Below, one piece after another: positions 1 to 5,012 of a DNA stretch of 5,597 nt. Numbering within the stretch: position 1 is the stretch's first letter; each line of letters starts with the position of its first letter. The stretch covers positions 1 through 5,597 of the forward strand of contig PMCA01000003.1 in the NCBI GenBank assembly GCA_003153935.1. The letters are read 5' to 3'. The stretch comes from Elusimicrobiota bacterium. GTDB lineage: Bacteria > CAYTYR01 > UBA6262. Under the pieces are notes generated by a model. It saw only the letters and a program-made list of their open reading frames with translations. It was not told the origin of the DNA and did not search any database. Made by a program: the position numbers and the translations under genes.

Positions 1-1451
1 GTGTCGGTGTCTTTCTGGTGCGGTTTCAGTTCAGCGGTGGGCGCCTTTTTCAGCACGTTCACCGGTATCACAAAGCCCTTGCCGTTCCGGTACTTGGCTA
101 ATTTATAGACCAGGGTTTTCGGGACGTCTTTGATCACCGCGAAACCTCCGACCATATCCCCGTACAGGGTGGCGTAACCGGTACTCATCTCTGATTTATT
201 ACCGGTCGCTAATACCAACCAGCCAAATTTGTTAGAAAGAGCCATCAGGATAGTGCCCCTGATGCGCGCTTGCAAATTCTCTTCCGCTATATTCTTTGCC
301 TCAGCCGCGAACACCGGCTCCAGTATCATCAAATAAATGTTATATAATTGCTCAATGGATATCGTCATCAGCTTGATGCCCAGCTTGTAGGCCAACTGCT
401 TGGCGTCCACTTCGCTGGCCTTGGACGAATACCGCGACGGCATGAACACGCCAACTACGTTATCCTTACCCAGGGCATCGGTCGCCAGGGTCGCTACCAG
501 CGCCGAATCCACCCCGCCGCTCAGTCCCAGCACCACTTTCTTGAACCCGTTCTTGTTCACATAGTCCTTCAGTCCCAATAATAGCGCCTGGTACACTTCC
601 TCTACCGGCTCCAGCACTTTCACATGGCTCTTAGGCAATGGTAGCCGACTCTTAACCGATATTTCTTTATCAATGACAACGCATTCTACGCCCTTATGGC
701 TCTTGGACTCCGGCACTTCCAGGTCCACTACCAGCAGGTCCTCTTTAAAGGCTTTCGCCAGGGTCACCAGGTGGCCCTTCGGGTCCACTACAATGCTCTG
801 GCCGTCAAACACCAGCTCATCCTGCCCGCCTACCAGGTTAGCATACACCACGAATACATTGTTCTCCTTGGCCTGGCTCTTGACCACTTTCTCCCTGACC
901 CGTATCTTGCCTGTATAATAAGGTGAAGCATTGATATTCACTATCAGTTTGGCGCCGGCCTTGGCCTGCTTGTGGGTCGGCCCGGTGGCATGCCAGATAT
1001 CCTCACAGATGTTCAGGCCGAACAGGATATTGCCAAATTGGAACACTGATGACTGCTCACCCGATACAAAGTATCTCTTTTCATCAAAGGGCCCGTAATT
1101 GGGCAACAGCATTTTGTGGGCTACGCCCTTAACCGTACCATTATGTATAATAGCCGCGGCATTGTAGAGGTTCCGGCCCTTCTGGTCCACAAAACCCACA
1201 ATAGCCAGTATATTGTCCACTCCCTTAGCCAATTCCTTCAAAGCATCCAGATTATCCTGTACGAACTGCGGCTTCAGCAGCAGGTCCTCAGGCGGGTACC
1301 CGGTCAGCACTAGTTCCGGGAATACTACCATATCCGCGCCAAATTCCTTGGCCTTCAGTATGGTCTGGCCGATCTTCTTGGCATTGCCCTGAAGGTCGCC
1401 TACTGTGCTATTTATCTGCGCTATGGCTATCCTAAGTTTCCCATCCATCAT
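1..1451 (-). CDS. nadE: Glutamine-dependent NAD+ synthetase, C-terminus cut by the window edge
   Basis: This cytoplasmic enzyme makes NAD+ from deamido-NAD+, ATP and glutamine, the last step of NAD biosynthesis. 483 codons are visible and the frame is still open at position 1, so roughly 60-100 residues are missing compared with the usual 540-580 or so. Residues about 5-270 form a nitrilase-type glutaminase domain with the Glu-Lys-Cys triad visible: E46 in VVFPELVLTGYPPEDLL, K113 in HKMLLPNYGPFDEKRYF, and C149 in LNICEDIW. Residues about 285 onward form the ATP-pyrophosphatase synthetase domain, with the P-loop SGGVDSA at 311-317 and GNKSEMSTGY from 417. The last visible part (IPVNVLKKAPTAELKP) matches the family's late conserved block. 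Three in-frame ATGs lie close together (1457, 1451, 1448). I chose 1451 because AGGA at 1462-1459 is then 7 nt upstream. The gene is GC-rich and has its own promoter and structured leader upstream. The identification is firm; only the exact start is open. Confidence 0.97.
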   Translation of the reverse strand, partial: MMDGKLRIAIAQINSTVGDLQGNAKKIGQTILKAKEFGADMVVFPELVLTGYPPEDLLLKPQFVQDNLDALKELAKGVDNILAIVGFVDQKGRNLYNAAAIIHNGTVKGVAHKMLLPNYGPFDEKRYFVSGEQSSVFQFGNILFGLNICEDIWHATGPTHKQAKAGAKLIVNINASPYYTGKIRVREKVVKSQAKENNVFVVYANLVGGQDELVFDGQSIVVDPKGHLVTLAKAFKEDLLVVDLEVPESKSHKGVECVVIDKEISVKSRLPLPKSHVKVLEPVEEVYQALLLGLKDYVNKNGFKKVVLGLSGGVDSALVATLATDALGKDNVVGVFMPSRYSSKASEVDAKQLAYKLGIKLMTISIEQLYNIYLMILEPVFAAEAKNIAEENLQARIRGTILMALSNKFGWLVLATGNKSEMSTGYATLYGDMVGGFAVIKDVPKTLVYKLAKYRNGKGFVIPVNVLKKAPTAELKPHQKDTD

Positions 1452-1458
1452 GGTCATG

Positions 1459-1593: not shown

Positions 1594-1649
1594 AAAAAGC
1601 AAAAACGTAGATACCGTCAAATCCTTGCGGATTAACAGGACATCTACGT
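1594..1649 (-). terminator. Second intrinsic terminator (T2) of the tandem pair
   Basis: On the minus strand ACGTAGAT (1649-1642) pairs with ATCTACGT (1612-1605), and G-U, U-G and C-G pairs extend the stem. The interior holds a second hairpin, AATCC-GCAA-GGATT (1633-1620), with a GNRA-type tetraloop. Two U-runs of five follow, at 1605-1601 and 1598-1594. The wobble pairs are only possible on the minus strand; on the plus strand they become A-C mismatches, which supports the strand call. An alternative hairpin at 1652-1637 would take up the same 5' arm. Confidence 0.65.
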
Positions 1650-1657
1650 CCTAAATG

Positions 1658-1686
1658 AAAAATCTTCCAGCAACTTTGCCGGAAGA
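1658..1686 (-). terminator. First intrinsic terminator (T1) of the tandem pair
   Basis: On the minus strand the arms TCTTCCGGCA (1686-1677) and TGCTGGAAGA (1672-1663) form 10 bp with one G-U pair and a 4-nt AAGT loop, followed at once by five U (1662-1658). The G-U pair would be an A-C mismatch on the plus strand, so this belongs to the minus strand. It may also stop transcripts that run on from the upstream lipoprotein genes. Confidence 0.75.
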
Positions 1687-1729
1687 CGACTTTGTCTCAC
1701 CGATTCGTATGTCTTAAACTTACAAGATA

Positions 1730-1758
1730 AGTATACAACAACGGGGGCGGATTGTCAA
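1730..1758 (-). promoter_or_regulatory. Strong sigma70-type promoter upstream of the tandem terminators
   Basis: TTGACA (1758-1753), a spacer of exactly 17 nt, then TATACT (1735-1730). The -35 is a perfect consensus and the -10 differs at one base. It begins only about 23 nt beyond the stop codon of the lipoprotein gene at 1782. It therefore drives a new transcript into the non-coding region rather than serving the gene upstream of it. Confidence 0.75.
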
Positions 1759-1781: not shown

Positions 1782-2618
1782 CTATTTATTAAATATATCA
1801 AAAGATATATCAAGATTGCTTGTATACCAGTAATTACCAGTAAATTCAATTCCCAGAGGTTCAAGCCCCAGGATCATTCTCTCCCCGGACCCATCCGCGT
1901 TGATCTCCATTATCCCCCTATTATCTCCGGTAAACTCCGAATAATGGTCCAAATAGTAATAGATCTTGTTATCTCTCCTATCCCACATGGGGTTAAAATA
2001 AAGCCGTATATTCATATATCCTGCATCTTTATTTAACTGCCATTTCCCGGAAAGGTCCTTGTTACTGACATAAATATTATTAAGTTCTGCCCATAGCATT
2101 TTTGACCTATCCTGAGAATAATAATATCTTATGCCCTTCACGTCAATCTTCAAATAATTGATCTCCTCACCTTGGGGCAACCTTTTCCCCGTGCCGTCAT
2201 AGTTCACAACAAAATAATCTTTGATCGACTGCCTGTATATAAGGGTTTTGGAATCAGGAAGGACAGCGAAATGATATATATCCTTCAATATAGGCTTCAG
2301 GTTTTCACCATTTTCATCAACAACATATACCCCTTTCTCCTTTTCGTTAAGATAATGCCAGGGACCTTCGTAATAGAATATAATATTTTTCCCATTATTG
2401 GCCCACTTAACATTTTTTATCATTCCGGGCAAAGTGGAATTAGGCACTAATTGTTTATTACCATCGGGGTTAATTATGTACAACTTATAGTACGTATCAT
2501 GCCCTTTTATCTCTGGGACGGCCATAACGATCTTCTCTATGGCAGGATCCAGCCGGTTAATTGGCACGTAGCTGCACCCAGACAGAACTAGCGCTAAAAC
2601 AAATAATAATTTTTTCAT
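1782..2618 (-). CDS. TolB/PD40-like beta-propeller lipoprotein B
   Basis: Predicted lipoprotein of 278 residues carried to the cell envelope; exact function unknown. The N-terminus MKKLLFVLALVLSGC is a textbook lipoprotein signal, with the lipidated cysteine at residue 15. The mature part carries repeats of the PD40/TolB-propeller type, such as VKWANNGKNIIFYY (70-83), VLPDSKTLIYR (119-129) and MWDRRDNKIYYY (211-222), with DENGENLKP- and NADGSGER-like turns between strands. A GTG at 2627 gives a start three codons longer. I prefer the ATG at 2618 because it overlaps the upstream TGA as ATGA, has GGTGG about 5 nt upstream, and yields the cleaner signal peptide. It is a paralogue of its upstream neighbour, is GC-poor, and is probably translationally coupled to it. 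Such propellers often mediate protein contacts, but no partner is visible. Confidence 0.85.
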   Translation of the reverse strand: MKKLLFVLALVLSGCSYVPINRLDPAIEKIVMAVPEIKGHDTYYKLYIINPDGNKQLVPNSTLPGMIKNVKWANNGKNIIFYYEGPWHYLNEKEKGVYVVDENGENLKPILKDIYHFAVLPDSKTLIYRQSIKDYFVVNYDGTGKRLPQGEEINYLKIDVKGIRYYYSQDRSKMLWAELNNIYVSNKDLSGKWQLNKDAGYMNIRLYFNPMWDRRDNKIYYYLDHYSEFTGDNRGIMEINADGSGERMILGLEPLGIEFTGNYWYTSNLDISFDIFNK

Positions 2619-3364
2619 TTTGTCCACCAGTCGAAATAGGCGCGATCATCAGAATTAAAAACAAGTCTGTTGAATTCTATGAGGACAAAATCGTCGCCAG
2701 TGTTTATATTTACAATTCTTATCTCATTCTTCGGCAAAATTGGCATAAAAGGCCAAGCCTCGTTAAAAACACACCTGCTATATGCTATTCTTTGACTATC
2801 TCTTGACCAGACAATATTGTCGATACTAGTATTCATACTTGATAATTTAGTGATGGCTCTTTTCTCTGAGCCATCTATATTACTTACAAATATATTTGGA
2901 TGATCATACTTAGACTCTATAAAAGCACACATCTTACCGTTGGGAGATACTACTTTCTCTTCATTTAACATCTCTCTTCTTCTATTAATATATTCACTGC
3001 CTTCCTTGGTTATTGGCTTCAAGTTATGGCCATTAGCATCGATGACATACAATCCACTGGTTATAGCTTGTTCAGCATTTCCCTTCCCCGTCCCCTGATA
3101 CATAAATATTATTTTCTGCCCATCTTCAGTCCAAACTGGCGCATATATTGCGTTCGGCATTAATGAATTATTTATCAGTTCGAAATCTTCAGTCGATTTA
3201 TTAAATACATATAGCCCAAAATATCTTTCTCCATCTGTGGCTTGTTTGGCAACAACTAATTTACCATCTAAGAAATTTGCCTCCCGCAATACTCTAACTT
3301 CGGCGCAGCCAATTAAAGAACCCATAAATAATATCAATATAAATCGTGACAGAATTTTTATCAT
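2615..3364 (-). CDS. TolB/PD40-like beta-propeller lipoprotein A
   Basis: Predicted envelope lipoprotein of 249 residues; function unknown. The signal peptide ends in LIGC, with the lipid-anchored cysteine at residue 20. PD40-type propeller repeats are visible at 76-90 (PVWTEDGQKIIFMYQ), 138-151 (VVSPNGKMCAFIES) and 184-197 (IVWSRDSQRIAYSR). Three or so blades are few for a closed propeller, so it may be incomplete or pair with another protein. The start is well supported: GGTGGAGG ends 4-5 nt before the ATG. The segment GLYVIDANGHNLKPI (104-118) closely matches VYVVDENGENLKPI in the next gene, showing that the two are tandem duplicates. The stop overlaps the next gene's ATG by 4 nt. I see no convincing promoter in the 92-nt gap upstream. 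Confidence 0.85.
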   Translation of the reverse strand: MIKILSRFILILFMGSLIGCAEVRVLREANFLDGKLVVAKQATDGERYFGLYVFNKSTEDFELINNSLMPNAIYAPVWTEDGQKIIFMYQGTGKGNAEQAITSGLYVIDANGHNLKPITKEGSEYINRRREMLNEEKVVSPNGKMCAFIESKYDHPNIFVSNIDGSEKRAITKLSSMNTSIDNIVWSRDSQRIAYSRCVFNEAWPFMPILPKNEIRIVNINTGDDFVLIEFNRLVFNSDDRAYFDWWTK

Positions 3365-4124: not shown

Positions 4125-5012
4125 TTACTCTTTCTGATATACCCTGACCCAGTCTATCATCATGGTTTGGGGTGTGGCGGTGATTTGATCGGCGGTTGGC
4201 GGATGTGGGTTAAAGAACTGACCGCCTATTTTGATATTATAATAAAAATAGAAGGCCTTGCGGAAAGAATCCTTAATCTTGCTGGTGGTGTAGTTCGTGT
4301 AATAATCCTTCCCATCCAATTGGAAAACGATCTTTTCTGCATCCCAGACGACCCCGAAAATATGGTAATCATCGCAGAAATTCGCGTTTCCTGGCAGTTT
4401 AACCGACTTAGATTCATATTTCCAGGTGGGCATATCGTGACCAAAGTGAACCGTACCCATAATAGTCCGGTTGCTGTCACCGGAATCCCCGCCGCGCATT
4501 TCCATAACATCGATCTCGCCGCAGGCTGGCCAACTGATGCCGTTGTCGCTGCTGGCATGGTCGAACTGATCGTCTCCGTACATGCAGAAACCCGGCCATA
4601 AGCCGTAGCCTTTGGGTAATTTTATCCGCGCCTCGATCCGACCGTATTTAAAAGCAAATTTACCTTTAGTTGTGACCTCTCCGGAAGTGAAATGGCTCCC
4701 GGCGTATTCCTCTTTGACCGCTCTGATAGCCAGCGCCCCGTTGGAAATAAAGACATTGTCCGTACGGGCCGTATAATATTCCAGCGACCAGCTGCCAAAT
4801 CCATCGTGGTTAGGGCCGTTGCCGGTATCTATCCTCCAGTGATTTGGGTCAATTGTACTGCCATTGAACTCATCAGACCAGATCAGCTTGTATCCGGTCA
4901 GGTCCGCTGGATTCTGAGCTACGGCGTCATAAGGACCGATAGCCAGCAGGCAGAACCAGATAATATAGGCAATAAGGAGTATTATCGGCAATTTTCTATT
5001 CATGCTATTCAT
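4125..5012 (-). CDS. Secreted GH16 family endo-beta-1,3-glucanase (laminarinase-like)
   Basis: Hydrolyses internal bonds of beta-glucans; most likely beta-1,3 or mixed 1,3-1,4 linkages, outside the cytoplasm. 295 residues. The N-terminus has a hydrophobic core (about 8-26) and a signal peptidase I site after AVA, near residue 32; the cysteine at 21 is not in a lipobox. The catalytic domain starts near YKLIWSDEFNGSTIDPNHW (41-59). The active-site motif GEIDVMEM holds the nucleophile E166, D168 and the acid/base E171. The extra residue before the second Glu (ExDxxE with a Met) is typical of laminarinase-like GH16 rather than lichenase-type members. The protein ends in the usual strand MMIDWVRVYQKE. 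It has no binding module, so it is a single-domain enzyme of normal length. Its ATG overlaps the upstream gene's stop by 8 nt, with no clear Shine-Dalgarno sequence, suggesting coupled translation. An ATG at 5003 is an alternative start. Linkage specificity is inferred. Confidence 0.93.
   Translation of the reverse strand: MNSMNRKLPIILLIAYIIWFCLLAIGPYDAVAQNPADLTGYKLIWSDEFNGSTIDPNHWRIDTGNGPNHDGFGSWSLEYYTARTDNVFISNGALAIRAVKEEYAGSHFTSGEVTTKGKFAFKYGRIEARIKLPKGYGLWPGFCMYGDDQFDHASSDNGISWPACGEIDVMEMRGGDSGDSNRTIMGTVHFGHDMPTWKYESKSVKLPGNANFCDDYHIFGVVWDAEKIVFQLDGKDYYTNYTTSKIKDSFRKAFYFYYNIKIGGQFFNPHPPTADQITATPQTMMIDWVRVYQKE

Follow-up and report, generated by a model that had tools for sequence, protein, structure and literature searches.

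The DNA between nadE and a neighbouring lipoprotein gene is, very probably, a 5′ leader of nadE that acts as a transcription attenuator under the control of an ANTAR protein. The window analysed, that is, the whole stretch of 5,597 bases, is one complete contig (C10) of a draft genome of 1.75 Mb. The elements on which this reading is built are the following:

3 to 1457, minus strand: nadE, glutamine-dependent NAD synthetase (Pfam PF00795 and PF02540), truncated at the contig end
1572 to 1582, minus strand: proximal nadE promoter element, an extended -10 TGTGGTATAAT, between terminator T2 and nadE
1601 to 1651, minus strand: terminator T2, an interrupted stem of 15 pairs with a nested inner hairpin AATCC-GCAA-GGATT and the U-tract TTTTT
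1638 to 1651, minus strand: hairpin H3, GGAC-GTAGAT-GTCC, with a six-base loop that has G at position 4 and also G at position 1; it lies in the 5′ arm of T2
1657 to 1687, minus strand: terminator T1, an 11-bp stem (1687-1662) followed by the U-tract TTTTT (1661-1657)
1667 to 1682, minus strand: hairpin H2, CCGGC-AAAGTT-GCTGG, loop 1677-1672 with A1 and G4; it abuts H1
1683 to 1698, minus strand: hairpin H1, GAGAC-AAAGTC-GTCTT, loop 1693-1688 with A1 and G4
1730 to 1758, minus strand: distal promoter TTGACA-N17-TATACT (exact sequence), predicted RNA start near 1723-1721
1782 to 2627: lipoprotein gene, with the distal promoter just past its end

The nadE product combines a carbon-nitrogen hydrolase (glutaminase) domain with an NAD synthase domain, and shares 92-94% identity with its counterparts in genomes of the same family. 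Positions 1782-3364 hold a tandem pair of lipoprotein genes whose ends overlap slightly; the upstream one has a weak match to PD40 beta-propellers, and the other has no Pfam match. The window also codes for a probably secreted protein of glycoside hydrolase family 16 (4125-5012).

An earlier note on this DNA had called attention to a near-consensus promoter just past the lipoprotein gene, and the boxes and their spacing were indeed found to be exact on the minus strand (1758-1730). This promoter ranks first among the 27 promoter-like sites of the window, with 11 of 12 positions matching. The distances of about 65 and 125 nt that the note gave from promoter to terminators are correct, the G-U pairs of both hairpins fit the minus strand only, and the leader contains no convincing ORF, all as it had stated. 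Its description of two tandem terminators was also borne out: T1, with 11 pairs, and T2 are both present. T1 is not just a terminator, however, but also the mutually exclusive partner of a structure that is likely a protein-bound antiterminator. T1 tops the 11 terminator-like sites of the window, where shuffles predict 4.6. T2 was missed by a simple terminator scan because of its inner hairpin. In one of its base pairs, both sides change in a compensatory manner (A-U to G-C) when four sequences are compared. For the whole leader of 131 nt, the folding energy is -42.5 kcal/mol, compared with an average of -27.4 for its shuffles (z = -4.6), and none of 200 shuffles was as stable.

Searching the DNA of relatives, we recovered the element from each of the other three family genomes (G001, G002 and G003), the phylum being represented by five genomes in the searched collection. 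When about 85,000 species were scanned for the pattern, one further nadE-linked copy, L072, came to light. The contig in question (JAQTVP010000049.1) is filed under a Dehalococcoidales MAG, and the nadE and PII genes on it are those of the present lineage, clearly so in the case of nadE; the contig is probably misbinned or mislabelled. In the five nadE leaders, TTGACA and the -10 box occupy the same place and are followed by the core GTAAG...AGACAAAG..GTCTTCCGGCAAAGTTGCTGGAAG, the terminal terminator and TGGTATAAT. The earlier note had proposed looking for conservation upstream of nadE with a model built from relatives, and both promoter and stems turned out to be kept in four of them. The genes upstream of the promoter all differ where they are readable (own genome, G001, G003 and L072) while the element stays before nadE, and the unit therefore belongs to nadE. 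The element TGGTATAAT, found between terminator and nadE in five of five genomes, endows nadE with a downstream promoter of its own, so that the leader would add a regulated transcript to a basal one.

Several other matches were set aside. The core of T1 is absent from the 2.9 million viral contigs scanned. A match in Delongbacteria (L070) is an ordinary terminator behind a membrane-protein gene, a dual-hexaloop match in another lineage (L058) lies within a coding gene and is due to chance, and the weak model matches G003:C48, G000:C23 and G004:C87 did not look like leaders on inspection. An extra hairpin pair found between T1 and T2 in G001 and G002 looks like a dispersed palindrome that does not belong to the motif. 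The nadE leaders L062 and L063, as well as L087 and L088, repeatedly contain, between terminators or behind them, a dispersed palindrome close to ACCCGCCGAAGCTTGGTGGCGGGT with a TTTACGAAAGTAAA-like hairpin ahead of it.

According to Ramesh et al. (PMC3369931), an ANTAR target consists of two hairpins whose stems have 3 bp or more and whose six-base loops both begin with A and have G in position 4; the second hairpin overlaps an intrinsic terminator. All five nadE leaders have six-base loops on stems of at least 3 bp, with 5 bp in H1 and 5-9 bp in H2. A1 and G4 are present in both loops, which read AAAGTC and AAAGTT in the own genome, and AAAGAT or AAGGAT with AAAGTT in the relatives. H2 is identical across the five leaders, and H1 keeps its stem and loop positions 1, 2 and 4 in all of them, while positions 3, 5 and 6 vary. 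As the stems are nearly invariant, covariation among the nadE leaders is uninformative. H3 has no A1, which makes ANTAR control of T2 uncertain.

T1 requires the GTCTT arm of H1, and the T1 and H1 folds are thus mutually exclusive. In the own leader, T1 folds at -17.1 kcal/mol and H1 plus H2 at -12.4 kcal/mol, and the other nadE leaders are similar; T1 is thus the more stable fold in unbound RNA, as expected for an attenuator that is off by default. The gap between the loops of H1 and H2 is 10 nt, which corresponds to a linker of 0 nt with 5-bp stems or 4 nt with 3-bp stems. Linkers measure 5-12 nt in the eut system and 2-25 nt in an actinobacterial set (PMC8164766), a range that includes the nadE linker only when its stems are counted as 3 bp. 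The proximity of the two hairpins counts against ANTAR control, given that induction of the eut system suffered when the linker was cut to 3 nt (PMC3369931).

Using a covariance model made from four of the leaders and run over the phylum, we detected weaker relatives of the element before PII-amt genes (G001 and G003), before nifH-nifI1-nifI2 (G002) and, in the own genome, before an operon coding for an outer-membrane protein, PII and Amt. L072 also holds a copy before PII. All these sister elements are located at nitrogen operons, which pointed to control of the ANTAR (AmiR/NasR) type. Known ANTAR targets are mostly nitrogen genes (PMC3369931). We then scanned both strands of 163 kb of loci of the lineage for hairpin pairs whose stems reach 3 bp and whose loops both have A1 and G4, with a linker of 2-25 nt (PMC8164766) and an overlapping terminator. 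Eleven distinct leaders were collected, all before nitrogen-related genes, although this count is biased in that the loci were partly picked for nitrogen or ANTAR genes, with many unrelated genes also included. They precede nadE (5), the own outer-membrane protein-PII-amt operon (1), gdhA (2, in G001 and G003) and glnA (3, in the own genome, G001 and G003). The total counts distinct sites, as two sites occurred twice among the loci scanned and G002 has two overlapping matches at one leader. The same scan gave 2 matches in 400 shuffles of the window, and with stricter settings 2 matches in 12.4 Mb of shuffled strand.

The glnA leaders precede glutamine synthetase III genes (L147 18956-19158, on contig C28 of the own genome; L149 3258-3520; L151 2969-3220) and combine dual hexaloops with a terminator. 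Their first loops, ATTGGT, AAAGCA and AAGGTA, agree at positions 1 and 4 only. In the PII leaders, the loops have G4 and the first of them begins with G; when G4 alone is required, the nifH leader of G002 also matches. The PII-type T1 pattern matched only leaders before PII (G003) and nifH (G002), plus one site that is probably a chance match. L087 (G002:C5) has a strong match to the NifH nitrogenase protein, in G002 alone of the five genomes; two nifI-type PII genes accompany it, and two leaders follow each other upstream. In the gdhA leaders (L107 389-603 and L105 2643-2867), the ribosome-binding site is inside an extra A1/G4 loop, TTTGC-AAAGGA-GCAAA, just before the ATG; this loop could mediate translational control by an ANTAR protein. 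Several nitrogen leaders (L147, L086, L087 and L088) share GTTACCAAA or a similar sequence about 20-25 nt before ACTTGTA, a combination that we take for a promoter or an activator site different from the one at nadE.

A strong distal promoter, two terminators and a proximal nadE promoter, all of them present in five of five genomes, might also be expected of a sponge, in which the terminated RNA of 65-125 nt sequesters the ANTAR protein and nadE is transcribed mainly from its own downstream promoter. EutX and Rli55, which sequester EutV, provide precedents for such RNAs (PMC7602753, PMC8934654). Nevertheless, the persistence of the element with nadE as its upstream neighbours change, and sister elements that are ordinary leaders of nitrogen genes, make this possibility improbable and favour attenuation of nadE.

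Genes for candidate regulators were found in the same genomes. ANTAR domains (PF03861) associated with GAF domains are encoded in all four genomes of the family, above the Pfam cut-off of 27.3. The own genome codes for a GAF-GAF-ANTAR protein of 411 residues (74 bits) and a GAF-ANTAR protein of 243 residues (60 bits). A GAF-ANTAR protein of about 240 residues is present in four of four family genomes and the longer protein of about 411 residues in three of four, its GAF-GAF-ANTAR architecture having been established in the own genome. In G001, a GAF-ANTAR gene immediately precedes gdhA, and a dual-hexaloop leader separates the two. G003 has a second GAF-ANTAR copy (L105 1348-2642) reduced to 79 residues behind a transposase-like gene, the intact copy being on L104. 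The ANTAR domain aligns with those of EutV (6wsh/6ww6), of the putative antiterminator Rv1626 (1s8n) and of NasR (4akk). Of the RNA contacts listed in PMC8934654, Met172 and Arg175 are conserved and Tyr164 corresponds to either Tyr or Phe, whereas other residues stand in the places of Arg168 and Arg177; the Met plug and an aromatic residue at the G4 contact described there are retained.

At the default cut-off, no PF03861 protein was detected in 14 control genomes or in G004, whose assembly is 88% complete, and no ANTAR gene was found in the bin that holds L072. G004 counts against ANTAR control, as it has ANTAR-like loops before PII-amt, yet no ANTAR gene was detected there. This genome belongs to another family, and the loops of its PII-amt leader (L155 610-835) are GAC-AAAGGC-GTT and GGGC-AAAGGC-GTCC, over terminators.

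Mutually exclusive folds and a conserved 5′ segment right after the start site would also suit an attenuator that senses a small molecule directly, as riboswitches do, or that is bound by a protein of another kind. Membership of an Rfam family, which the earlier note had suggested checking with Infernal, did not materialize: the window gave no matches even at E-values up to 5, and the nadE leaders of G001-G003 gave nothing at gathering score. Sub-threshold PyrR and ssnA matches were found in relatives only and were rejected; the PyrR match (28.3 bits against a threshold of 54, E = 1.1) touches only the start of the G003 leader. With conservation concentrated in the two six-base loops of ANTAR signature, and with ANTAR genes present, we regard a riboswitch or another type of binding protein as very unlikely. 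The earlier note had left the choice between a small RNA and a leader with controlled readthrough, and the leader is the part that stands, given nadE synteny, the ANTAR signature and the sister leaders; a small RNA gene that stands on its own and acts in trans, without involving nadE, as its own promoter and terminators and the lack of an ORF might suggest, is not needed and is scarcely credible, since the element is syntenic with nadE in five genomes and has relatives among the leaders of further nitrogen operons.

For the ANTAR-controlled attenuator of nadE that we favour, the following mechanism can be proposed. The RNA would begin near 1723 and, without an active regulator, the nascent chain would fold into T1 and stop near 1657; molecules passing T1 would reach T2 and stop near 1601. 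An active GAF-ANTAR protein would bind H1 and H2 at their six-base loops as these come out of the polymerase. Folded H1 would then keep the GTCTT arm, so that all that remained of T1 would be a 5-bp hairpin separated from the U-tract, and the polymerase would continue to nadE. The 5′ arm of T2 is common to H3, and T2 may be switched likewise. The promoter after T2 would ensure a basal supply of nadE. The presumed signal is nitrogen status.

A link between nadE and nitrogen has a precedent at the protein level. NadE(Gln) is bound by PII proteins, which lift its feedback inhibition, and PII genes are frequent neighbours of nadE (PMC7196632). In the lineage studied here, nadE is found near PII genes in G003, L072 and the outgroup G004, and it adjoins glnA in G004. 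We found no literature linking ANTAR with nadE; the supplementary target tables of PMC3369931 were outside that search, and priority is unproven. The mechanism itself is already known; nadE is apparently new as an ANTAR target, and the geometry of the switch is compact. On balance, we lean slightly towards the broader view that a GAF-ANTAR protein acts on transcription elongation to tie NAD synthesis to nitrogen status, that nadE is a new class of target, and that abutting hexaloops with an inverted terminator overlap represent a distinct switch geometry. An unexplained promoter that lacked a gene can now be tested as part of a regulatory circuit in bacteria that have not been cultured, and NAD synthesis joins the nitrogen genes likely to be under ANTAR control, in parallel with the contact between PII and NadE. 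The predicted ANTAR regulon of this uncultivable group includes glnA, gdhA, PII-amt, nifH and nadE.

In Klebsiella oxytoca, nasF is under antitermination by NasR, which senses nitrate through its NIT domain. There, as proposed here for nadE, a one-component protein that joins a sensor to an ANTAR domain controls a nitrogen gene through antitermination; the candidate regulators here have GAF domains in place of the NIT domain. The eutP leader of Enterococcus faecalis, the target of EutV (PMC3369931, PMC8934654), resembles the nadE leader in that both have two A1/G4 six-base-loop hairpins overlapping an intrinsic terminator. They differ in their target gene and in spacing, the nadE loops being just 10 nt apart, and also in that T1 of nadE disrupts the first hairpin, the second remaining at its apex, whereas in eutP it is the second hairpin that is lost; this reversal counts against the ANTAR reading. 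Furthermore, the likely regulator here has a GAF sensor and not the receiver domain of EutV. The ANTAR nitrogen regulons predicted for Desulfotomaculum and Pelobacter (PMC3369931) likewise comprise several leaders per organism, for P-II, amt, nitrogenase and glutamine or glutamate synthesis; the present set belongs to another, uncultured lineage, and its targets include nadE and gdhA. Finally, the control of NadE(Gln) by PII (PMC7196632) likewise ties NadE to carbon and nitrogen status, but it works on the enzyme by protein contact, whereas the control proposed for the nadE leader would operate on transcription.
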